Source: Sphaerotilus microaerophilus (GTDB lineage Bacteria > Pseudomonadota > Gammaproteobacteria > Burkholderiales > Burkholderiaceae_C). Taken from it: a stretch of DNA of 64,000 nt. The notes under the pieces are model-generated. The model searched no databases, was not told where the DNA came from, and worked only from the letters and a program-made list of their open reading frames with translations. Position numbers and translations under genes: made by a program. Positions 49,434-60,481 of this stretch are shown piece after piece. The DNA lies in NCBI RefSeq assembly GCF_023734135.1, contig NZ_AP025730.1:5642001-5706000 (forward strand), read 5' to 3'. Numbering within the stretch: the first letter of the stretch is position 1; each line of letters starts with the position of its first letter.

Positions 49434-50162
49434 TCAGCCCTTGGTCACGTCCAGGCGAGCCGCCCACGCGGCCTGGTGGCGCCGCTCGCGCGGGTCATCG
49501 GGCTGGTTGCGGGTGGGCGAGAAGAACAACCCCGGCGCGTGCATCAGCTTGCTGAACGGGAAGATCAGCATCAGCGCCGCCACCAGCGACAGGTGCACGA
49601 CCAGCGGGCCATCGGCCGGCAATGGCAGCACCTGGAAGTGCATCAGCCCGATGAAGAAGCGCTTGACCGCCAGCACGTCGGTGTGGAACACGAACTTCAT
49701 CGCCAGGCCGGACGCGGCGATCAGCAGCAGCAGCGCCAGCATCAGGTGGTCCGACGGCGTGGAGATGTAGCGGATGCGCTGCACCGCCCAGCGGCGCAGC
49801 CACAGCCCCGCCAGGCCGGCGACCATCAGCAGCCCGCCCAGGATGCCCAGCGGCTGCATCCAGGCCACCAGGCCCCACACCGGATCGGTGAAGTAGCGCA
49901 GGTGGCGCAGGCCCACCAGGGCCAGCCCGACGTGGAAGATCCAGCCGCAGGCCCAGAGCCAGAGATTGGCGCGGAACAGGCTTTCGAAGAACACCAGCTC
50001 GCGCGCCAGCCGCAGCGCCACGCCGCCGGAGGTGGTGGGAGCCGGCGTGGTGGGGATCTTCAGCGGCGCAGGCACCTGCCCCCAGCGCCACAGGCGCGCC
50101 GCCACCCCCGCCACCAGCACGATGGCGGCGAAATAGAACAGGGTGGCGAATGCGTAGTTCAC
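49434..50162 (-). CDS. dsrM: DsrM, membrane cytochrome b subunit of DsrMKJOP
   Basis: 242 aa from a GTG (VNYAFATLFYF); an ATG at 50225 in frame would add 21 residues unlike the family. Five or six transmembrane helices resemble NarI-type cytochrome b, with candidate haem His residues in WIFHVGLALVGLRHLRY, VFHTDVLAVKRFFIGLMHF and VVHLSLVAALMLIFPFSKLMHAPG. It passes electrons between quinone and DsrK. There is a gap of about 190 bp after dsrC. Confidence 0.88.
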   Translation of the reverse strand: MNYAFATLFYFAAIVLVAGVAARLWRWGQVPAPLKIPTTPAPTTSGGVALRLARELVFFESLFRANLWLWACGWIFHVGLALVGLRHLRYFTDPVWGLVAWMQPLGILGGLLMVAGLAGLWLRRWAVQRIRYISTPSDHLMLALLLLIAASGLAMKFVFHTDVLAVKRFFIGLMHFQVLPLPADGPLVVHLSLVAALMLIFPFSKLMHAPGLFFSPTRNQPDDPRERRHQAAWAARLDVTKG

Positions 50163-50354
50163 GGGGACAGGAGGGATAAGGAAACCTGAGGAACCAGAGA
50201 AACCGGGGACCGGGAAACCAAGCACTCGGCACCGGCAGCCATGCCGGCGACGCAGCCATGCAGCGGCACCACCCTGGCTGCATGCAGCCGGATCGGACAG
50301 GGTGCCGGTGACTCAGGAAGGCAGCACCCCCACGGGGGCTGCCGGCGGCTCAGC

Positions 50355-50690
50355 TCAGACGCAGCCGGTCGGCTTGGGCAGGCCGGCGATCTTGCAGGCC
50401 TGCTTGGCCGGGCCGTAGGGGAACAGCTCGTACAGGTACTGGCTGTTGCCCTTCTCCGGGCCGAGCTGCTTGCCGATGGCCTTGGTGAGCACGCGCACCG
50501 CCGGGGCGATCTGGTACTCGTCGTAGTAGCCACGCAGGAAGTTCACCACCTCCCAGTGGTTGTCGGTCATCTGGATGTTCTCGGTGCCGGCGATGTAGTT
50601 GCCGACGTCGGCATTCCAGTCGGCGAGGTTGACGAGGTAGCCCTCCTCGTCGGTTTCGTAGCTCTTGCCGTTGACTTCGATGGTGCTCAC
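50355..50690 (-). CDS. dsrC: DsrC, sulfur-carrier substrate of DsrAB and DsrMK
   Basis: 111 aa from a GTG with AGGAGA 6 nt upstream (VSTIEVNGKSYETDEEG). The C-terminal arm ACKIAGLPKPTGCV has both redox cysteines, Cys99 and Cys110, spaced as in canonical DsrC, so the protein can form the intramolecular disulfide or trisulfide. It receives sulfur from DsrEFH and delivers it to DsrAB. Contrast the cysteine-less paralogue at 57993. Confidence 0.96.
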   Translation of the reverse strand: MSTIEVNGKSYETDEEGYLVNLADWNADVGNYIAGTENIQMTDNHWEVVNFLRGYYDEYQIAPAVRVLTKAIGKQLGPEKGNSQYLYELFPYGPAKQACKIAGLPKPTGCV

Positions 50691-50777
50691 AGGCTTCTCC
50701 TGAGGGGAAAGGTAGGCGCCGGCCATCGGCGCATCAGAGTCGGTCGTTCTTGTGGTCTTGTCGATCGAGGCCCGTGT

Positions 50778-51089
50778 TCAGAGCCAGGACTGGTTGTTGG
50801 GGTGCGCGGCCACCAGGTCGACGAAGCCGCCGTAGTCCACGGTGTGCACGCCGTCGAGCACCCGGTCGGCCACGCCGCGGGCCTCCAGGTCGGGCATCAG
50901 CGCGTAGACCTTGCAGCGCGCCATCGCATCGGCGATCTTCGCTGCGGCGGCGTTGCCCCGGGTGACGGCGTAGACGGCGTCCTCGATCAGCAGCAACGCG
51001 TCCCCGGCGCCGCCGTCGGCGCACATCAGACGCAGGCAGCTGTCCAGCGTGTTGCGCTCCAGCGGGGACTTGTTGACGATGTTCAGCAT
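50778..51089 (-). CDS. dsrH: DsrH, subunit of the DsrEFH sulfurtransferase
   Basis: 103 aa, AAGGGAAA upstream. A TusB-like small alpha/beta protein: MLNIVNKSPLERNTLDSCLRLMCADGGAGDALLLIEDAVYAV to VDYGGFVDLVAAHPNNQSWL. The conserved Cys of TusB/DsrH type is in LRLMCADG or SCLR. With DsrE and DsrF it forms the hexamer that passes sulfane sulfur to DsrC. Confidence 0.93.
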   Translation of the reverse strand: MLNIVNKSPLERNTLDSCLRLMCADGGAGDALLLIEDAVYAVTRGNAAAAKIADAMARCKVYALMPDLEARGVADRVLDGVHTVDYGGFVDLVAAHPNNQSWL

Positions 51090-51107
51090 GGCGTTTCCCT
51101 TCGAGGC

Positions 51108-51464
51108 TCAGAAGCTCAGCACCACGTCCTGCTCGCGCATCAGCGCGGCCATCTCCGCGGCGGGCAGCACCGTCACGTCGACCAGCAGGTCGTCCTCGGT
51201 CAGCCCACGTGCCTGCATCGACTCGCGCTCCACGTAGAGCTTCTCGATGTCGTAGCCGTCCAGTGCCCGGTAGGTGGGCGAGAAGTTCTTGGTCTCGATG
51301 CCCTTGGTCAGCTGCTGCTTCTTGAGCTGGTAGACGCCGTCATCGACGAAGGCCAGCGACACGTCCTGGTCGAAGGCCGCGGTGATCAGCACCACTTCCA
51401 GCGACTCCAGCGCGTACACCGTGCCGTGAGGGGCCTTGCGGTTGACGAACATGAACTTTTTCAT
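51108..51464 (-). CDS. dsrF: DsrF, subunit of the DsrEFH sulfurtransferase
   Basis: 118 aa from the ATG of MKKFMFVNRKAPHG with GGGAG upstream. It is TusC-like, with FVNRKAPHGTVYALESLEVVLITAAFDQDVSLAFVDDGVYQL and a C-terminal LMREQDVVLSF. It has no cysteine in the DsrE position, as expected of DsrF. It stabilises the DsrEFH complex. It lies 16 bp after dsrE. Confidence 0.93.
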   Translation of the reverse strand: MKKFMFVNRKAPHGTVYALESLEVVLITAAFDQDVSLAFVDDGVYQLKKQQLTKGIETKNFSPTYRALDGYDIEKLYVERESMQARGLTEDDLLVDVTVLPAAEMAALMREQDVVLSF

Positions 51465-51480
51465 CGCTGCTCCCACCGAC

Positions 51481-51840
51481 TCAGTCGCCGAACGTGACCA
51501 CGCGGTCGGCCTGGATGCCGACCTCGACCAGCTGCCCGAGCCCGGAGATCCGGAAGCCCGGCGCCAGGTTCTCGTCCTTGATGCCGCGGCGCAACGCCGC
51601 GGCCACGCAGACCACCAAGTCCACGCCGTGCTGCTCGGCCAGCCGGCTCCAGCGCTGGACGATGTTGCGGTCGTCCTGCGGCGGCTCGGTCAGGCGGGTC
51701 GAGTTGTTCACCCCGTCGTGATAGAAGAACACACGCTGGACGGTATGGCCCCGGGCGATGGCGGCAGCGCAGAACTGGTAGGCGCTGTCGCTGGCCTGGT
51801 GCTGGTAGGGGCCTTCGTTGACGAGGATGCCGAACTTCAT
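51481..51840 (-). CDS. dsrE: DsrE, catalytic subunit of the DsrEFH sulfurtransferase
   Basis: 119 aa. The TusD-like sequence begins MKFGILVNEGPYQHQASDSAYQFCAAAIARGH and carries the persulfide Cys in DLVVCVAAALRRG, matching Cys78 of Allochromatium DsrE. Its presence with DsrF and DsrH distinguishes sulfur oxidisers from sulfate reducers. It lies 24 bp after dsrB. Confidence 0.95.
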   Translation of the reverse strand: MKFGILVNEGPYQHQASDSAYQFCAAAIARGHTVQRVFFYHDGVNNSTRLTEPPQDDRNIVQRWSRLAEQHGVDLVVCVAAALRRGIKDENLAPGFRISGLGQLVEVGIQADRVVTFGD

Positions 51841-51864: not shown

Positions 51865-52974
51865 TCAAAAGCGGATGTGGGTCGAGGCGTTGAGGTTGAC
51901 GCGCGCGCCGCGCCAGTCGTCGATCAGGTACTTGGTGAAGGTCAGGCCGGTCTTCTCGAAGAAGCGCGGCCAGCCGATGCGCTCGATCCAGTCGGCGATG
52001 CGCTCCCAGGAACGGGCGTCTTCCTTGTAGGTGTGCAGGATCTTCTTGACCACCTCGGACACCTCGGGCCAGCGCGGCGGGTTGTTGGGCAGGCCGGACA
52101 CCACCATCTTCATGAAGGTCGGCTTGCCGCGGGCGTTGCTGTTCTTGCCGCCCACCCAGATCGCCAGCTTGCTGTGCTCGGGGTCGTTGATCTGCATCGG
52201 CGGGCACGGGGGGTAGCAGGCGCCGCAGCAGATGCACTTGGCCTCGTCCACTTCCAGTGAGGGCCGGCCGTTGACCAGCGCCGGGCGGATCGCCGCCACC
52301 GGGCAGCGCGCCACCACCGAGGGGCGCTCGCAGACGTTGGCCACCAGGTCGTGGTTGATCTTGGGCGGTTTGGTGTGCTGCACGATGATGGCGATGTCCG
52401 CCTGGCCACCGCAGTTGATCTCGCAGCAGGAGGTGGACAGGTGCACCCGGTTGGGCATCTCCTCGCGCCGGAACTCGGTGATGAGCTCGTCCATCAGCGC
52501 CTTGACCGCGCCGGAGGCATCGGTGCCCGGGATGTCGCAGTGCAGCCAGCCCTGGGTGTGCGCGATCATCGACACCGAGTTGCCGGTCCCCCCCACCGGG
52601 AAGCCCTCGGCCTCCAGCTTCTCGATCAGCGGCGCCACCTTGTCGGCGGCCGACACCATGAACTCGATGTTCGAGCGGATGGTGAAGCGCACATGGCCTT
52701 CGGCGTACTGGTCGGCGATGTCGCAGAGCTTGCGCACGGTGCCCACGTCCATCTGGCGCTGGGTGCCGGCACGCACCGACCAGACCTCGTCGCCACTGCG
52801 AGCCACGTGGTGCAGCACGCCGGGACGCGGGCGGTCGTGGTACTTCCACGCGCCGTAGTTCTTCTTCAGCAGCGGGTGTAGGTATTGCTGGTTGTCGGGC
52901 ACGCCGCACTCGATGGCGCGGCGCGGGGAGGCCTTCGGAGCGGCGGTGGCGGCGGTGGCCGTGGCGGTGTTCAT
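51865..52974 (-). CDS. dsrB: DsrB, beta subunit of reverse dissimilatory sulfite reductase
   Basis: 369 aa, GAGGAGACG upstream. The coupled siroheme/[4Fe-4S] motif is STSCCEINCGGQAD. A ferredoxin domain has CICCGACYPPCPPM with a second cluster formed in the same region (VVARCPVAAIRP). DsrAB oxidises DsrC-bound sulfane sulfur to sulfite in the cytoplasm. It follows dsrA by 24 bp. Presence of DsrEFH and DsrL places it in the oxidative type. Confidence 0.96.
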   Translation of the reverse strand: MNTATATAATAAPKASPRRAIECGVPDNQQYLHPLLKKNYGAWKYHDRPRPGVLHHVARSGDEVWSVRAGTQRQMDVGTVRKLCDIADQYAEGHVRFTIRSNIEFMVSAADKVAPLIEKLEAEGFPVGGTGNSVSMIAHTQGWLHCDIPGTDASGAVKALMDELITEFRREEMPNRVHLSTSCCEINCGGQADIAIIVQHTKPPKINHDLVANVCERPSVVARCPVAAIRPALVNGRPSLEVDEAKCICCGACYPPCPPMQINDPEHSKLAIWVGGKNSNARGKPTFMKMVVSGLPNNPPRWPEVSEVVKKILHTYKEDARSWERIADWIERIGWPRFFEKTGLTFTKYLIDDWRGARVNLNASTHIRF

Positions 52975-52998: not shown

Positions 52999-54303
52999 TC
53001 AGGCAGCCTGCTGCTGTTGCTTGAGCGCCTTGATGCGGGCGACCTCGTCGTCCCAGCCGTCGGTGCGCACGTAGGGGTTGGTGCGGGGGCAGGCGACCAT
53101 GTTCGGATCGACCTCGATCTCCAGCGCCTCCAGGAAGTTCACCAGGCCGATGCGCTCGATCATTTCGCCGGTGCGCTCGTGCTCCAGCGCGTTCTCGGCA
53201 AAGAAGTCGATGATCTTCTGGGCCAACTCGACCAGCGCCTCGCGGTCCTCGTCGGTGGCCAGCTTCATGAATGGCACCACCACGGTGCCCATCAGGTCGC
53301 CGATCTTGAGGGTGCGCTTGCCTCCGACCAGGATGGTTGCGCCGGTGTCCTCGCCCGGGGCCAGGCCGCCGGTGATGACGTTGATGCAGTGCATGCAGCG
53401 CACGCAGTCACGGTTGTCGATCTCCAGCGCCTGGGTGTCGGACACCTTCACCGAGGTGATGGTCGCGCCGGTCGCCACCTTGCTGGCATCCTTGAGCTGG
53501 ATCGCCTTGGTCGGGCAGCGGGCCACCACGTTGTTGACCAGCTCGTCCACGCCGTGGGCAGCGAACCAGCGGCGCGCCAGCGCCTCGTCGCTGCGCATGT
53601 TGTCGCGCCAGGTGCCGATGATGGCCATGTCGGCGCGCTGGATCGAGTTCATGCAGTCGTTCGGGCAACCACTGAACTTGAACTTGAACTTGTACGGCAG
53701 CGACGGACGGTGGATGTCGTCCAGGAAGTTGTTGATCACCGCCCGGTGCGCCCGCGCCTCGTCGTAGCAGCTCTGCTCGCAGCGCGCTGCGCCGACGCAG
53801 CTCATCGAGGTGCGCACCGCCGGGCCGGCGCCGCCCAGGTCGAAACCCAGCTCGTTGATCGCGTCGAAGGCGCCCTGCACGTTGTCCGTCTTGGCGCCCT
53901 GGAACATGATGTCGCCGGACTGGCCGTGGAAGGCGATCAGGCCCGAGCCATGCTCCTCCCAGACGTCGCAGAACTTGCGCAGGATGTCGGTGGTGTAGTG
54001 CATGCCCGGCGGCGGCATCACACGCAGCGTGTGGAACTCGGCAGCGTCCTTGAACACCGGCTTACCCTCGGCGTCCTTCAGCTCGGTGAAGCGCGGGATC
54101 ACCCCACCGCCGTAGCCGATCACGCCGACCGTGCCGCCCTTCCAATAGCCCTTGCGGGTCTTGTAGGACGTCTCCAGCTGGCCGAGCACGTCGACCACGT
54201 AGTCCTTGTCCTCGGCCAGGCGTTTCAGGCCGGTCACGAAACTGGGCCACGGGCCGGACTCGAGCTCGTCGAGCATCGGCGTGGGATGCATGGGCTTGGC
54301 CAT
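52999..54303 (-). CDS. dsrA: DsrA, alpha subunit of reverse dissimilatory sulfite reductase
   Basis: 434 aa from the ATG of MAKPMHPTPMLDELESGPWPSFVTGLKRL, with AGGAGACAA upstream. The siroheme/[4Fe-4S] motifs are SCVGAARCEQSC and FSGCPNDCMNS. The inserted ferredoxin domain has RDCVRCMHCINV and VARCPTKAIQ. It is the first gene of dsrABEFHCMKLJOPNR. Only 88 bp of native upstream DNA remain before the second IS630 copy. Confidence 0.97.
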   Translation of the reverse strand: MAKPMHPTPMLDELESGPWPSFVTGLKRLAEDKDYVVDVLGQLETSYKTRKGYWKGGTVGVIGYGGGVIPRFTELKDAEGKPVFKDAAEFHTLRVMPPPGMHYTTDILRKFCDVWEEHGSGLIAFHGQSGDIMFQGAKTDNVQGAFDAINELGFDLGGAGPAVRTSMSCVGAARCEQSCYDEARAHRAVINNFLDDIHRPSLPYKFKFKFSGCPNDCMNSIQRADMAIIGTWRDNMRSDEALARRWFAAHGVDELVNNVVARCPTKAIQLKDASKVATGATITSVKVSDTQALEIDNRDCVRCMHCINVITGGLAPGEDTGATILVGGKRTLKIGDLMGTVVVPFMKLATDEDREALVELAQKIIDFFAENALEHERTGEMIERIGLVNFLEALEIEVDPNMVACPRTNPYVRTDGWDDEVARIKALKQQQQAA

Positions 54304-54391: not shown

Positions 54392-55555
54392 GTGTAGTGT
54401 TTGATTGTTGAAGCAACTTAATTGAACAACACGACTCCAATGGTCTACTACGGACAGAGTTGGAGCCAGGAAGTGCGAGTTGCCCCTGCGATCGAGTTGA
54501 GTCAAGAGGAGGAGGCTGAGTTGATCCGGCTGGCGCATTCGAAGGCGACCAGCGTTCGACTGGCCGAGCGTGCGCGCATTGTTTTGCTGGCCGCGCAAGG
54601 CCTGCAGAACCTGCAGATCGCCCAGGAGCTGGGCATCGACCGGATCACGGCGGGTCGCTGGCGCCAGCGCTACATCAAGTCCGGACTGGCGGGCATCGAG
54701 CGGGACCTGCCGCGCGGGGCACCGCCGGTCAAGGTGGACGTGGCCAAGCTGGTGGAGCTGACCACGCAAAGCCAGCCCGAGGCCGCCACGCACTGGAGCA
54801 CGCGCAAGATGGCTGCGGTGCTGCAGGTCAGCCCCAGCACGGTGATGCGTCACTGGCAGGCCAATGGGCTCAAGCCGCACCTGGTGCGTGGCTTCAAGGT
54901 CTCGCGCGACCCGAAGTTCGTCGAGAAGCTCGAAGACATCGTGGGGCTGTACATGTCCCCGCCCGAGCACGCCCTGGTGCTGTGCTGCGACGAGAAGAGC
55001 CAGGTGCAGGCACTGGACCGCACGCAGCCGGGCCTGCCGATGAAGAAGGGTCGTGCGCAGACGATGACGCACGACTACAAGCGCCACGGCACGACCACGC
55101 TGTTCGCTGCGCTCAACGTGCTTGACGGCACGGTCATTGGCCAGTGCCAGCAGCGGCACACGCACGCCGAGTGGTTGAAGTTCCTGCGCCAGATCGACCG
55201 CGAGACGCCCAAGGGCAAGACCCTGCACCTGATTGCCGACAACTATGCCACCCACAAGCACGCGGCGGTGCAGGCGTGGCTGGCCAAGCACCCCAGGTTC
55301 CACATGCACTTCACGCCGACCTCGGCGTCTTGGCTGAACATGGTGGAGCGCTTCTTCCGCGACATCACCACCGAACGCCTGCGGCGCGGCGTGTTTACCA
55401 GCGTGGGCGAGCTGGAGGCGGCGATCAAGGCGTACGTCGCGCATCACAACACCAGTCCCAAGCCGTTCATCTGGACCAAGAGCGCTCGCGACATCTTGCA
55501 GAAGGTCATTCGCGCCAACTCCCGGTTAAGTGGGAAACAGAATGGAACACTGCAC
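54392..55555 (+). mobile_element. IS630-family insertion sequence, copy 2 (1164 bp), upstream of dsrA
   Basis: Same length, ends and apparently the same sequence as copy 1, in the same orientation, flanked by TA at 54390-54391 and 55556-55557. It lies between dsrA and the SQR-like gene, which are transcribed apart. It therefore splits what was a region of about 270 bp holding both promoters. Lack of divergence from copy 1 suggests recent transposition. Confidence 0.95.
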
Positions 55556-55558
55556 TAG
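54422..55558 (+). CDS. IS630-family DDE transposase (copy 2)
   Basis: 378 aa, same protein as the transposase at 2080-3216, with CDEKSQ, IADNYATHK and NMVERFF as the DDE residues. As in copy 1, the final TAG is completed by the target-site TA and the next base. It is transcribed away from dsrA and towards the SQR-like gene. Read-through from the transposase could therefore affect that gene. Confidence 0.93.
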   Translation: MNNTTPMVYYGQSWSQEVRVAPAIELSQEEEAELIRLAHSKATSVRLAERARIVLLAAQGLQNLQIAQELGIDRITAGRWRQRYIKSGLAGIERDLPRGAPPVKVDVAKLVELTTQSQPEAATHWSTRKMAAVLQVSPSTVMRHWQANGLKPHLVRGFKVSRDPKFVEKLEDIVGLYMSPPEHALVLCCDEKSQVQALDRTQPGLPMKKGRAQTMTHDYKRHGTTTLFAALNVLDGTVIGQCQQRHTHAEWLKFLRQIDRETPKGKTLHLIADNYATHKHAAVQAWLAKHPRFHMHFTPTSASWLNMVERFFRDITTERLRRGVFTSVGELEAAIKAYVAHHNTSPKPFIWTKSARDILQKVIRANSRLSGKQNGTLH

Positions 55559-55744: not shown

Positions 55745-57025
55745 ATGGCGCACATCGTGATCATCGGCGCGGGCATCGGCGGCATGCCGATGGCCTACGA
55801 GATGCGGGAACTTGCCCGCCCGGAAGACCGCATCACCGTGGTCAGCAACTCGCCGACCTTCCACTTCGTGCCCAGCAACCCCTGGGTGGCGGTGGACTGG
55901 CGCCAGCGCGGCGACATCGAGCTGGACATCGGTCCGGTGCTGGCCAAGCGCAAGATCGGCTTCTCCGCCGCGGGCGCGAAGCGGGTGCATCCGGCCGAGA
56001 ACCGCGTCGAGCTGGGTGACGGAAGCAGCCTCGCCTACGACTTCCTGGTCATCGCCACCGGCCCGAAGCTGGCCTTCGACGAGGTGCCCGGCCTGGGCCC
56101 GGCCAGCGGGGGCGGGCACACCCAGTCGATCTGCCACGTCGACCACGCGGTGGACGCGCAGCACGCCTGGCACAGCTTCGTGAAGGAACCGGGCCCGATC
56201 GTCGTCGGCGCGGTGCAGGGCGCCTCCTGCTACGGTCCGGCCTACGAGTTCGCGATGATCATGGAGACCGACCTGCGCCGGCGCAAGCTGCGCGACCGCG
56301 TGCCCATGACCTTCGTGACGCCCGAGCCCTACATCGGCCACCTCGGCCTGGGCGGCGTGGGCGACTCCAAGGGGCTGCTGGAGTCGATCTTCCGCGATCG
56401 CCACATCAAATGGATCTGCAACGCCAAGACCACCCGGGTCGAGGCCGGCAGGATGTTCGTCACCGAGCACGACGAGGACGGCAAGCCGAAGAAGGAGCAC
56501 GAGCTGCCCTTCAAGTACTCGATGATGCTGCCGGCCTTCAAGGGCGTGGACGCGGTGTTTGGCATCGAAGGGCTGACCAACCCGCGCGGCTTCATCACGA
56601 TCGACCAGTTCCAGCGCAACCCGAAGTTCAGGAACATCTACTCGGTGGGCGTGTGCGTGGCGATCCCGCCGGTGGAGGCCACGCCGCTGCCGGTGGGTGC
56701 GCCGAAGACGGGCTACATGATCGAGTCGATGGTCACCGCGACAGCGCACAACATCCGCGCCGCGCTGGACGGCCAGGAGCCCACCAAGACGGCGACCTGG
56801 AACGCGGTCTGCCTGGCGGACTTCGGTGACAGCGGCGCCGCCTTCGTCGCCCTGCCGCAGATCCCGCCGCGCAACGTCAATTGGTTCAGCGAGGGCAAGT
56901 GGGTGCACCTGGCCAAGATCGGCTTCGAGAAGTACTTCCTGCGCAAGATGCGCAACGGCACCTCGGAGCCCGTCTTCGAGAAGATGGTGCTCAAGGCGAT
57001 GGGCATCGCCAAGCTGAAGAACTGA
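55745..57025 (+). CDS. Sulfide:quinone oxidoreductase-like flavoprotein
   Basis: 426 aa, ATG preceded by GGAGACAGG. The FAD-binding motif is HIVIIGAGIGGMPMAYEM, with later motifs FLVIATGPKLAFDEVPG and IYSVGVCVAIPPVEATPLPVG. Candidate redox cysteines are in QSICHVDHA, GASCYGPAYEFA and VGVCVAIPP, and the C-terminal helix (VHLAKIGFEKYFLRKM) suits membrane association as in SQR. It probably oxidises sulfide with quinone as acceptor, although this SQR-like subgroup may use another sulfur substrate. It is the first gene of a seven-gene operon. Confidence 0.85.
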   Translation: MAHIVIIGAGIGGMPMAYEMRELARPEDRITVVSNSPTFHFVPSNPWVAVDWRQRGDIELDIGPVLAKRKIGFSAAGAKRVHPAENRVELGDGSSLAYDFLVIATGPKLAFDEVPGLGPASGGGHTQSICHVDHAVDAQHAWHSFVKEPGPIVVGAVQGASCYGPAYEFAMIMETDLRRRKLRDRVPMTFVTPEPYIGHLGLGGVGDSKGLLESIFRDRHIKWICNAKTTRVEAGRMFVTEHDEDGKPKKEHELPFKYSMMLPAFKGVDAVFGIEGLTNPRGFITIDQFQRNPKFRNIYSVGVCVAIPPVEATPLPVGAPKTGYMIESMVTATAHNIRAALDGQEPTKTATWNAVCLADFGDSGAAFVALPQIPPRNVNWFSEGKWVHLAKIGFEKYFLRKMRNGTSEPVFEKMVLKAMGIAKLKN

Positions 57026-57051: not shown

Positions 57052-57285
57052 ATGGTCGCCACGCGCCGACTCGCCGACCTGACCGTGCCCTGGGGCCGGC
57101 AGGAAATCCAGCTCGAAGAGGTCGACTTCGAGACCGGTGGTATGCCGCTGCTGCGCGTGCGCATCCGCGAAGGCAAGCGCTTCACCATCTTCGACGTGGA
57201 CGCCGCCACCGCCGCTGCCTGGGCGCAGGCGATGCAGGCCTGGAGCGACACGCAGGCGGCCGCACCGGCCGCGCAGGTGCCATGA
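57052..57285 (+). CDS. Small conserved protein in the sqr-cas6-like operon
   Basis: 77 aa from the ATG of MVATRRLADLTVPWGRQ, 26 bp after the SQR-like gene. The sequence LPL-type core (EIQLEEVDFETGGMPLLRVRIREGKRFTIFDVDAATAAAWAQAM) suggests a small beta-rich domain with a C-terminal helix. No cysteine, no signal peptide. The last 4 bases overlap the start of the Cas6-like gene (ATGA). I do not recognise a function; it may be a structural partner of a neighbour. Confidence 0.65.
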   Translation: MVATRRLADLTVPWGRQEIQLEEVDFETGGMPLLRVRIREGKRFTIFDVDAATAAAWAQAMQAWSDTQAAAPAAQVP

Positions 57286-57965
57286 CGGTCGTGGCCCTCC
57301 CGACCGCGCTGGAAGCCGCGCAGCAGGCGGCCGCTCACACGGTCGACCTGGCCTTCGAGTTGGCCGGCCGGGATCTGCCGCGCGAGCACTGCGCCGCCCT
57401 GGCCGCCGCCCTGCAGCAGGCCCTGCCCTGGCTGGCCGAGGAGCCCCAGGCCGGCGTACATGCGCTGCGCAGCTCACCCGGCGAGGACGACCTCGTGCTG
57501 CTGCCGCGGCGCGCCCGCCTGGGGCTGCGCCTGCCCGCCGCGCGCGTGGCCCAGGCCCGGGCGCTGTGCGGCCAGCGGCTCGACGTGGACGGCCACCCGC
57601 TGCAGGTGGGTGCCGCTGCGCCCCCGCGCGAACTGGTACCCACCCGCACGCTGTACGCCGACTTCGTCTGCTGGGGGCCAGCCGACGAAGACTTCGATGC
57701 TCAAGTGGCCAGCACGCTCGCCGAGTTGGGCGTGACAGGCCACTGGATCAGCGGCGGCGCGCGCTCGACCCTCGCTCCTGGCAGCGAGGGCCGCCCTTCG
57801 ACCGAGTCCAGCCGCCTGCACGGCCACGCCCTGGTGCTGCACGACCTGCCGCAGCGGCACGCGCTGGCGCTGCAGGTGCTGGGGCTGGGCCGCCACCGCC
57901 TGCTCGGCTGCGGCCTGTTCGTGCCACACAAGACCATCACCGGGCTGGGTTCCCCCGAGGACTGA
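57282..57965 (+). CDS. Cas6/Cmx6-like RAMP-fold protein in a sulfur-oxidation operon
   Basis: 227 aa. The sequence follows the Cas6/Cmx6 (type I-MYXAN) plan: a first ferredoxin-like domain (TVDLAFELAGRDLPREHCAALAAALQQALPWL, then GVHALRSS), LLPRRARLGLRLPAARV, LDVDGHPLQVG, and a second domain ending in the glycine-rich loop VLGLGRHRLLGCGLFVPHK (Gly201, 203, 209, 211). His36 occupies the place of the general-base His of Cas6. Cas6 proteins cut CRISPR RNA, but no array or other cas gene is in the window. It is coupled to the upstream gene by ATGA and lies 27 bp before a DsrC-like gene. RNA processing or binding linked to sulfur metabolism is an inference. Confidence 0.78.
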   Translation: MTVVALPTALEAAQQAAAHTVDLAFELAGRDLPREHCAALAAALQQALPWLAEEPQAGVHALRSSPGEDDLVLLPRRARLGLRLPAARVAQARALCGQRLDVDGHPLQVGAAAPPRELVPTRTLYADFVCWGPADEDFDAQVASTLAELGVTGHWISGGARSTLAPGSEGRPSTESSRLHGHALVLHDLPQRHALALQVLGLGRHRLLGCGLFVPHKTITGLGSPED

Positions 57966-57992
57966 GCCCCCGACACACGGAGACCGCCACCC

Positions 57993-58322
57993 ATGGGTTA
58001 CCTGATCAACGGCAGCGACCACGAGGTCGACGACGAGGGCTACCTGCTCGAGGCCCAGCTGGGCGACGACGTCCCCGCGGTGATCGCCGCCGCCGAGGGC
58101 ATCACGCTCACCGACGCGCACTGGACCGTGATCCGCTACCTGCGCGACGCCTGGCGCGAGCACGGCCACACGCCCAACTTCCGCGCCATGCTCAAGGAGA
58201 TCGCGGAGATCGACCCGGCGCTGGACAACAAGGCGCTGTACGACCTGTTCCCGATGGGCCCCGCCAAGCAGGGCGCCCGCATCGCCGGCCTGCCCAAGCC
58301 CTTCGGCAAGGGCGGCTACTGA
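57993..58322 (+). CDS. DsrC/TusE-family protein without cysteines (RspA type)
   Basis: 109 aa, GGAGA upstream. It has the full DsrC/TusE fold (GYLINGSDHEVDDEGYLLEAQLGDDVPAVIAAAEGITLTDAHWTVIRYLRDAWREHG), but the C-terminal arm reads ARIAGLPKPFGKGGY. Both redox cysteines are absent and there is no Cys anywhere. Such cysteine-less homologues have been termed RspA and proposed to be regulatory. It cannot carry sulfur by the DsrC mechanism. It sits between the Cas6-like gene and a tandem TusA. Confidence 0.88.
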   Translation: MGYLINGSDHEVDDEGYLLEAQLGDDVPAVIAAAEGITLTDAHWTVIRYLRDAWREHGHTPNFRAMLKEIAEIDPALDNKALYDLFPMGPAKQGARIAGLPKPFGKGGY

Positions 58323-58345
58323 ACATCGAAAGAGGGCCGCGAGCC

Positions 58346-58840
58346 ATGACCACCCCGTTCCCCACTCCCCACGTGACGCTGGACGTCAAGGGCGTCAGCT
58401 GCCCCGGCCCCATCCTGAGCGCCAAGCGACTGGTTGATGACCTGGCCGAGGGCGAGGTGCTGCTGCTGGTGTCCGACTGCGCCGGCACCGAGAGCGACCT
58501 CTTCGCCTGGGCGCGCGCCACCGGCAACCAGGTCGTCGGCGCCGACAAGCGCCCCGACGGCAGCCAGGGCTACTACATCCGCAAGGGCACCGCCGACCAC
58601 CCGCCGGCCCAGGCCGACCTGGACCTGCGCGGCGTCGTCTGCCCCGGCCCCATCGTCGAGGCCAAGCGCCTGCTGGGCAGCATGCAGCCGGGCGAGGTGC
58701 TGCGCCTGGTGAGCGATTGCGCCGGCGTGCGCGGCGACATCGCCGGCTGGGCCGACGCCACCGGCCACTCGATCATCGCCACCCACGAGGTGGCCACCGG
58801 CACCTACGAGTTCTTCATCCGCCGCGGCCCGAACCGGTAG
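58346..58840 (+). CDS. Tandem TusA-TusA fusion protein
   Basis: 164 aa. Two TusA domains in one chain: residues 10-81 with GVSCPGPILSAKRLV (Cys19) and 91-163 with GVVCPGPIVEAKRLL (Cys99). Each domain also has a second conserved Cys in LVSDCAG. The domains are similar enough to suggest internal duplication. A two-site carrier could move sulfur between partners or bind two at once. It follows the cysteine-less DsrC homologue by 23 bp. Confidence 0.92.
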   Translation: MTTPFPTPHVTLDVKGVSCPGPILSAKRLVDDLAEGEVLLLVSDCAGTESDLFAWARATGNQVVGADKRPDGSQGYYIRKGTADHPPAQADLDLRGVVCPGPIVEAKRLLGSMQPGEVLRLVSDCAGVRGDIAGWADATGHSIIATHEVATGTYEFFIRRGPNR

Positions 58841-58892: not shown

Positions 58893-59528
58893 ATGGCCCT
58901 GCGCATCAAGAACCAGTGGTTCCGCGAGGACCGCCCACGCAGCGTGCGCGAGGTGGCCGGCGCGGCGGCGTTCATCGTCTGGCGGGTGGGCTTCAACGTG
59001 CTGCAGAACATGCGGCGCGCGGATTTCGACATCCTGCCCGGCGCGCAGTACTTCGACTTCCTGGCCGAGTGGCTGGTCTTCCTGATCCAGGTGACCGACC
59101 GCATCGCCTATGCGCAGATGAGCGAGCCCGAGCGCCTGGACTTCACCTCCACCCTGGCCAACCGGGTGGCGGAGATCTACGCCGACAACCGCGCCGACCT
59201 GCTCGGCGCCCGCACCGATCCCGGTGCCCCGGCCGCCGCGCCGGGCCGGCACCCGGACCGCGACCACTTCATCGACCTGCTCAACCTGCGCTCGCAGGAC
59301 TATGCCGACTTCGACATCGAACCGGCGCGGCTGACCCACCCGGTGGCACGCTTCCTGGCCGAGCGGCTGATCCACGTGCTCGGGGACCGTGACCGCATGT
59401 GGGTGCACGACCAGGTGATGGAGATCGAGGCGCCCGACGCCGCCGCCCTCGTCCTCAAGGGCCTGAACGGCCTGCTCGGCCAGGCGCCCCGGCGTGCCCG
59501 GCGGGCCGCAGGCGTTGCCGGAGACTGA
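58893..59528 (+). CDS. Conserved protein of unknown function in the cas6-like/tusA operon
   Basis: 211 aa, helical, AGAAGGGGAAGG upstream. Segments include RSVREVAGAAAFIVWRVGFNVLQNMRRADFDI, YFDFLAEWLVFLIQVTDRIAYAQMSEPERLDFTSTLANRVAEIYADNRADLLG, DFDIEPARLTHPVARFLAERLIHVLGDRDRMWVHDQVMEIEAPDA. No signal peptide or clear membrane helix. I do not recognise the family. The co-directional context suggests a role with the TusA-tandem and DsrC-like proteins. Confidence 0.75.
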   Translation: MALRIKNQWFREDRPRSVREVAGAAAFIVWRVGFNVLQNMRRADFDILPGAQYFDFLAEWLVFLIQVTDRIAYAQMSEPERLDFTSTLANRVAEIYADNRADLLGARTDPGAPAAAPGRHPDRDHFIDLLNLRSQDYADFDIEPARLTHPVARFLAERLIHVLGDRDRMWVHDQVMEIEAPDAAALVLKGLNGLLGQAPRRARRAAGVAGD

Positions 59529-59533
59529 CCCAG

Positions 59534-60481
59534 ATGAACGCCGCCGCCACCCTGGCCACCCCATTTCACGCCACGACATCGGCCGCCGATGCGGCACCGC
59601 CCGCTCCCTGGGACGCCACCGGCCCGCGGCCCGAGCGGCTGGCGCGCTGGCTGGAGCACCGGCTGCGGCACTACCCGCGCAGCGCCGAGGCGCTCGTCGT
59701 TGAGTTGCGTGACCCACACCAGCCCACGGCGGCCGAGCAGGGGGCACTGACTGATCGCCTGCGGCGCAGCGGCATGGCGATCTATGCCAGCACGCGGCTG
59801 GACGCCGACCCCACCCTGCCGCGGCAGTTGGCCAGGCACCTCGGCCTGCAGCGGCTGGACAGCAACTGGCTGGCCGACGACGAGGGCATCAGCCACCTGC
59901 AGGTGCAGCCGGGCATCGCCGCCGGGATGGACTACATCCCCTACACCAACCGGGCGCTTGGCTGGCACACCGACGGCTACTACAACCCCGGCGACCGCCA
60001 GGTGCACGCCCTGCTGCTGCACTGCGTGCGCCCGGCCGCCAGCGGTGGGGCGAACCGGCTGCTCGACCACGCCCTGGCCGCGGCGCTGCTGATGCAGCGT
60101 GAAGCCGCCCTGGCCGCCGCGCTGTTCCACCCCGAGGCGATGAGCATCCCGCCGCGCGTCGAGGCCGATGGCAGCGAGCGCCCCCGCCAGACCGGCCCGG
60201 TGCTGAGCGTGCGCGCGGACGGCGCGCTGCACATGCGCTACACGGCGCGCAGCGTGAGCATCGACTGGCGTGACGACGACAGCACCCGCGCCGCCGCTCA
60301 GGCCCTGCGCGAGATCCTGGCCGACTCGGCCACCCCGGTGCTGCAGGCCCGCCTGCAGCCGGGCTGGGGGCTGGTGGCCGCCAACGTACTGCATGACCGC
60401 AGCGCCTTCATCGACGACCCCGCCGCGCCGCGGCTGATCTACCGCGCCCGTTTTCTGGACGCGCTGCCAGGCATGGCCTGA
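59534..60481 (+). CDS. TauD/TfdA-family Fe(II)/2-oxoglutarate dioxygenase-like protein
   Basis: 315 aa from the ATG of MNAAATLATPFHATTS, 5 bp after the preceding gene. The double-stranded beta-helix fold carries the HxD motif in LGWHTDGYYNPGDR and the distal His in VVAANVLHDRSAFIDD, with an Arg (APRLIYRARFLD) suited to bind 2-oxoglutarate. TauD relatives hydroxylate sulfonates, releasing sulfite, or other small acids. It could supply sulfite from an organosulfur compound in this operon. The substrate is unknown. Confidence 0.82.
   Translation: MNAAATLATPFHATTSAADAAPPAPWDATGPRPERLARWLEHRLRHYPRSAEALVVELRDPHQPTAAEQGALTDRLRRSGMAIYASTRLDADPTLPRQLARHLGLQRLDSNWLADDEGISHLQVQPGIAAGMDYIPYTNRALGWHTDGYYNPGDRQVHALLLHCVRPAASGGANRLLDHALAAALLMQREAALAAALFHPEAMSIPPRVEADGSERPRQTGPVLSVRADGALHMRYTARSVSIDWRDDDSTRAAAQALREILADSATPVLQARLQPGWGLVAANVLHDRSAFIDDPAAPRLIYRARFLDALPGMA

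Follow-up and report, generated by a model that had tools for sequence, protein, structure and literature searches.

The closest described relatives of the protein studied here are the Cas6/Cmx6 proteins (TIGR02807, PF09559) of CRISPR subtype I-MYXAN and the Cas6 of the I-B CAST, a Cascade subunit (PDB 8fcj). The early active-site histidine of Cas6 is catalytic. Two further systems are relevant, namely the DsrC/TusE family (PF04358), in which TusE docks on tRNA-bound MnmA, and the Dsr operon dsrABEFHCM.... To our knowledge, Cas6, DUF6967 and the protein called ORF5 below are not among the described dsr genes. In passages of PMC10952691, PMC5728499 and PMC5944118, Cas6 appears in a CRISPR context only. 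Within the open-licence literature searched, no paper linking Cas6 to dsr was found, and the papers found for Cmx6 were unrelated by title. In this study, we describe a Cas6-family clade that has a post outside CRISPR.

The window, that is, the whole stretch of 64,000 nucleotides of Sphaerotilus microaerophilus DNA that was analysed, carries the gene of interest at 57282..57965 on the plus strand. An earlier note on this DNA had described a 227-aa ORF that overlaps a small upstream gene by ATGA and is followed by a cysteine-less DsrC homologue and a tandem TusA, and all of these points were borne out. The upstream gene (57052..57285, plus strand) encodes DUF6967 (PF22295, 101.9 bits). Downstream, also on the plus strand, lie a DsrC-family paralogue (57993..58322; PF04358, 104.3 bits) with no cysteine and the C-terminus GKGGY, a tandem TusA-domain sulfurtransferase (58346..58840; PF01206 in two stretches), ORF5 (58893..59528) and, following ORF5, a TauD-like dioxygenase (59534..60481; PF02668), which is present in loci L078 and L173 too. 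ORF5 is all-helical, is conserved in the cluster and belongs to no known family: it had no Pfam or NCBIfam match at E ≤ 1, and its model (pLDDT 89.6) had no PDB match at E ≤ 0.001. In Thiobacillus thioparus (locus L078), the DsrC paralogue and ORF5 are separated by a rhodanese gene.

The dsrA gene (52999..54303, minus strand; TIGR02064, 507.7 bits at 53035-54273) is divergent from the cas6 cluster. Beside it are a gene that we take to be dsrB (51865..52974, minus strand; a secondary match to the dsrA model at 51937-52749, with gene order across loci assigned by similarity) and, at 49434..51840 on the minus strand, ORFs that we presume by our own recognition to be dsrE, dsrF, dsrH, dsrC (C-terminus GCV) and a dsrM-like ORF, in an order conserved in relatives. 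The Dsr locus is presumably of the reverse, sulfur-oxidising type. The dsrA-to-Cas6 gap was 3063 bp in the window, compared with a median of 607 bp in the order sample; the unusual distance of about 3 kb arises because a transposase gene (54422..55558, plus strand; Pfam DDE_3/HTH, presumably IS630-like from our reading of the sequence) and an oxidoreductase gene (55745-57025, between the transposase and DUF6967) fill it. The transposase gene interrupts a divergent region that is conserved in other loci. An insertion at 57771-57797 (Cas6 residues 164-172) was seen in the window protein alone, the 84 other rows of the alignment having a gap there.

The scores of the window protein against PF09559 and TIGR02807 were 158 and 124 bits, respectively (cut-off 26.7 and curated cut-off 98.85, respectively), and the PADLOC Cas6 match had an E-value of 5e-47. 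The sequence match to 8fcj had E 3.1e-9 with the window protein alone and E 2e-44 with a profile that includes the six plasmid comparators introduced below. The AF2 model (pLDDT 92) had Cas6 structures as its top PDB matches, some of them entries with RNA, and in the structure comparison by VIA-align 50 of 50 rows among the matches listed were CRISPR proteins. His36 and the Gly-rich loop (residues 201-217) were found where the earlier note had placed them, and its Cas6/Cmx6 assignment agreed with both the profile search and the structure comparison. Scores above the curated cut-offs, a predicted Cas6 fold with the Gly-rich loop and an early histidine together support membership of the window protein in the Cas6/Cmx6 family.

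In the own lineage, the Cas6 relative was present in 5 of 60 genomes (own included), in 5/5 between DUF6967 and a DsrC-family gene, and the four other proteins had 34-43% identity to the window protein. A scan of public genomes with the pattern GCG[LIV]F[VIM]P[HY]K gave at least 586 places; the 80 best were kept, so that the synteny counts of this contig set lean to close relatives. On the same strand within 3 kb, DUF6967, a DsrC-family gene, ORF5 and TusA were seen at 75, 75, 72 and 25 of the 80 loci, respectively, and a divergent dsrA was seen at 78; one of the two remaining loci (L030) lies on a contig that ends early, and the other (L085) shows dsrE and other dsr genes. Of the neighbourhood proposed in the earlier note, dsrA and the DsrC paralogue were the more constant partners, and TusA was variable.

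Less biased counts came from an order draw and a class draw. In the order draw, an even draw of 399 genomes, Cas6 was found in 80, full dsrA in 84, both in 77 and neither in 312. Only 3/315 genomes without full dsrA had Cas6, and all 3 carried dsrA in pieces. Many of the 312 genomes with neither gene had weak dsrA-model matches only, as did 6/14 control genomes. All 80 Cas6 genes adjoined dsrA or a dsrA piece, divergently, with a median distance between matches of 607 bp (DUF6967 included) and a maximum of 4963 bp. The tie to sulfur genes that the earlier note had drawn from one locus is thus far stronger than that note could know. Against a dedicated companion of dsr stand 7 genomes that have full dsrA yet lack Cas6, and a phylum draw in which the Cas6 relative occurred in only 5/398 genomes, all of the own order. 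At least 3 of these 7 genomes keep other genes of the cluster in place: DUF6967, a DsrC-family gene, TusA and ORF5 in G547, DUF6967, TusA and the start of ORF5 in G501, and DUF6967 and ORF5 in G627.

The class draw took one or two genomes each from many families, so that rare lineages are weighted up. The Cas6 relative was found in 73/219 genomes, own included, 72 of them above cut-off. Besides the window there were 72 places, with dsrA divergent within 4.5 kb in 52 and a DsrC-family gene next to Cas6 in 55, including 11 where dsrA was not in view. At 9/72 places neither was in view, partly because of contig ends, and no dsr genes were seen in the ORF lists of 7 of these 9. Eight of the nine genomes have full dsrA elsewhere, and in the ninth, given as 90% complete, the Cas6 relative is on a 3.5-kb contig. 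The six neighbours of dsr-distant Cas6 genes that were tested comprised 3 families linked to sulfur by name (TauD, Sulf_transp and TauE) and 3 RNA or housekeeping families (RNase III, SpoU methylase and Obg-type GTPase). Loci L197, L223 and L230 have dsr-distant Cas6 relatives near TauD-, TauE- and sulfur-transport-family genes, and at L249:4977-5639 a Cas6 relative stands alone next to a gene for RNase III, in a 1.4-Mb genome with dsrA elsewhere. Even genomes measuring about 1.1 to 1.4 Mb retained the Cas6 relative. We are almost certain that a clade of Cas6/Cmx6-fold proteins in Burkholderiales and Gammaproteobacteria is dedicated to the Dsr locus, tracks dsrA and is independent of CRISPR; the divergent Dsr operon beside the cas6 cluster is conserved in order.

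Could the protein be an ordinary CRISPR Cas6 that acts in trans on distant arrays and came to lie here by chance? The absence of CRISPR reported in the earlier note holds for the 64-kb window, where no CRISPR-like array was found (no 20-mer in copies spaced 40-95), and does not hold for the genome, which has several arrays that could serve such a protein. Five cas1 matches (one weak, 46 bits) lie at four places with large arrays. The cas1 closest to the window gene is about 1.2 Mb away on the contig, a distance that falls to about 1 Mb if the contig is circular. The four CRISPR-Cas places (L105-L108, at about 4.45, 3.18, 0.64 and 3.26 Mb of contig C1) have different repeats, and one array has more than 80 repeat copies. 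The genome has two PF10040 Cas6 matches, one inside a III-A locus, so that this locus has its own Cas6 and another match exists besides; the III-A locus also carries a Csx1-like CARF-HEPN protein. Across the order draw, cas1 was present in 28/80 genomes with Cas6 and 121/319 without it (Fisher p 0.70), and 52/80 Cas6-carrying genomes had no cas1 match (the own genome has cas1). These counts uphold the independence from CRISPR claimed in the earlier note, and co-occurrence with cas1 as in type I-MYXAN was not seen. Nor did cas3, cas5 or cas8 with an array lie beside the gene; dsrA lies there instead, at 78/80 contig loci. The earlier note had set against its own reading a chance placement combined with an array elsewhere; arrays do exist in the genome, but the position on the dsrA side is constant. 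As a general account, action in trans on arrays is refuted, and we regard it as highly improbable.

The comparators were six cyanobacterial plasmid relatives, among which L112 is a weak match (E 0.2); cas3 adjoins five of the six. At L112:1802-7234, on a plasmid of Gloeobacter morelensis, the Cmx6 relative is basic and lies with a PAPS-reductase-family gene and five Pfam-less proteins; the annotation shows no further cas gene within 4 kb, and this is possibly another non-CRISPR use of Cas6. The dsr-linked set was separated from the six comparators by one branch (SH-aLRT 99) in a quick tree in which long branches meet and four of the six comparators have an unusual letter make-up. Unlike the comparators, the dsr-linked clade is acidic. 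Its median pI was 6.3 in the contig set (n=83), 6.5 in the order set (n=30) and 5.9 in the class set (n=72), and net charge was negative in 67/83, 17/30 and 61/72 proteins, respectively; the comparators had pI 9.3-9.6 (n=6) and the two other Cas6 proteins of the own genome 8.9 and 9.3, and the pI contrast rests on these six and two proteins. Lys205 of the loop is Lys in 6/6 comparators, 0/83 contig-set proteins and 0/102 order and class proteins. R77, E136, G158 and K/R217 are near-invariant in the dsr clade and not in the comparators: they were present in 102, 101, 101 and 102, respectively, of the 102 proteins that make up the order set (the top 30 of 80 by score) and the class set, and position 136 is Pro in 6/6 comparators. 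Arg127 is found in 6/6 comparators and 70/72 class proteins and is mostly His in the order set (25/30). R77, R83, H216 and K217 would suit an anionic ligand. Residues 209-217 are invariant in the contig set by construction of the search pattern; the HMM-found order and class sets, which are free of that, retained the Gly-rich loop too. The alignments leave out L004, L011, L056, L095 and a few partial frames. The dN/dS values of 0.06-0.35 in 12 pairs indicate purifying selection on the Cas6 relative.

The putative catalytic His36 was kept in 71/72 class and 23/30 order proteins (94/102 together) and in 55/83 proteins of the contig set, on whose tree it changed between His and another residue at least 8 times; in the Thiobacillus-group clade it is absent in 21/22. 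Of the two elements picked out in the earlier note, the loop was kept in the HMM-found samples too, and the histidine in most lineages. Some lineages naturally have Asn or Tyr at position 36. Because 8fcj itself has Asn at the aligned position, loss of His36 alone is no proof of lost activity.

These features bear on a reading in which the protein is a pseudo-nuclease adaptor: the Cas6 fold would now be a protein-protein module that, with DUF6967 and the DsrC paralogue, holds or inhibits sulfur carriers of the Dsr, TusA or DsrC type without RNA contact. The acidic charge, the missing Lys205, the repeated loss of His36, the new invariant Arg and Glu, the neighbours, which are mostly sulfur-carrier or sulfur-pathway proteins, and the lack of an RNA element nearby all argue for it, but the invariant basic residues in or near the old loop and the retention of the Gly-rich loop in the HMM-found samples argue the other way. 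With His36 in 71/72 class proteins, the simple loss that the contig set had suggested does not fit. We consider such an adaptor a real possibility, on balance somewhat below even.

The more constant partners of Cas6 are dsrA, the DsrC paralogue without terminal Cys and, in the own order, DUF6967. DUF6967 was present in 29/30 genomes with Cas6, 5/7 with dsrA and no Cas6, and 0/43 with neither, and it was seen in only 3/72 class loci (by similarity to the window copy). The paralogue belongs, like DsrC, to PF04358 and is present in most loci; it differs from the DsrC/TusE family in having K[GA]GY instead of the terminal Cys. We take it to be RspA, and the gene at 57993-58322 to be RspA-like; RspA with DsrC in a sulfur context was not found in the open-licence literature. 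The ending K[GA]GY was seen in 79/79 readable cases (86 loci examined, 5 without a paralogue in range, L011 and L056 dropped for a misread strand or frame), and in the class set, where L228 was misread, the DsrC-family neighbour ends in GY in 54/55; the true DsrC of the window ends in GCV. The window paralogue, which is not among the 79, has no Cys and so lacks the conserved one that closes the C-terminal arm of a DsrC carrier. A partner free of cysteine throughout was considered and rejected: 43 of the 79 have none, and at least one is present in the other 36, in 25 cases close to the inner Cys place of DsrC.

Another reading is an active sequence-specific endoribonuclease, which would cut dsr or other sulfur-related RNA as CRISPR Cas6 cuts repeats. 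No conserved hairpin was found in the Cas6-to-next-gene spacers, 54 class spacers included (the latter with mean z -0.5, 7 below -2 and one at -6.1, against shuffles that keep non-overlapping base pairs only), nor in the dsrA-DUF6967 region, for which alifold z-scores are not meaningful because the shuffles have near-zero spread. An Rfam scan of 48-62 kb of the window gave 3 chance-level matches, all below the gathering score. The fold match, which includes entries with RNA, and the presence of His36 and the Gly-rich loop in most proteins speak for a nuclease; no candidate substrate in the spacers or the dsrA-DUF6967 region, and several lineages that lose His36 yet keep the gene in place (with the Asn of 8fcj as a caveat), speak against it. 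We believe that an active nuclease of this kind is unlikely.

One element in the dsrA-DUF6967 region did look like a repeat hairpin with a 3' handle, namely GCAAGCCC-N12-GGGTTGAAA or near variants at 18 Thiobacillus-group loci (e.g. L024, L028 and L078). As a CRISPR-repeat-like RNA it was rejected: among the loci compared it is confined to the Thiobacillus group, mostly just the outer 3-4 pairs form (0 in L080, 2 in L027), no covariation of the inner part was visible by eye, and its length is near-constant at 17-19 nt. TTGAAA is -35-like, and downstream -10-like hexamers match TATAAT at 2 to 4 of 6 positions. The element is more likely a DNA operator or promoter of the Cas6 operon.

In this study, we speculated that the protein is a domesticated Cas6 that binds RNA and thereby regulates the Dsr pathway. 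RNA handling is something we infer from the fold, His36 and the invariant basic residues, and the retention of His36 in most lineages leaves room for an RNA role. The RNA-linked sulfur relay suggested in the earlier note is hypothetical, given a DsrC partner that lacks the terminal Cys, an acidic protein, a loop without its Lys and no conserved RNA target found close by. The target of the proposed regulator would be an RNA from another source in the cell, such as dsr mRNA, a small RNA or tRNA, and Cas6 with the DsrC paralogue, which carries K[GA]GY for the terminal Cys, might monitor the sulfur relay, where the paralogue would compete with true DsrC for docking sites. Cutting through His36 may persist where the histidine is kept and would be dispensable where it is lost. 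The acidity of the clade, the loss of Lys205, the repeated loss of His36 and the absence of an RNA element nearby weigh against this mechanism, which is nearly an even bet when taken by itself. In our ranking, the RNA-binding regulator is narrowly ahead of a pure protein adaptor, and both come before an active nuclease and a CRISPR helper. A dsr-dedicated clade combined with a domesticated RNA-binding regulator is our best explanation overall, with a probability of roughly 0.5. A bolder form of it is doubtful: dissimilatory sulfur metabolism might have domesticated a CRISPR RNA-processing protein and, with the DsrC paralogue lacking terminal Cys, made an RNA-based Dsr switch, in which the DsrC-like arm would sense relay traffic and Cas6 would bind or cut the target RNA, by analogy with TusE on tRNA-bound MnmA.

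For CRISPR surveys, the NCBI cas6_cmx6 model can mislead, since 80/80 matches of the order sample pass its curated cut-off and dsr-linked proteins would be labelled as CRISPR. For the biology of sulfur, the Dsr locus gains a gene that can be tested genetically. A Cas6 clade outside CRISPR constantly accompanies a major pathway of the sulfur cycle and is under purifying selection, and an RNA-handling protein seems to have taken on a new function in sulfur metabolism.
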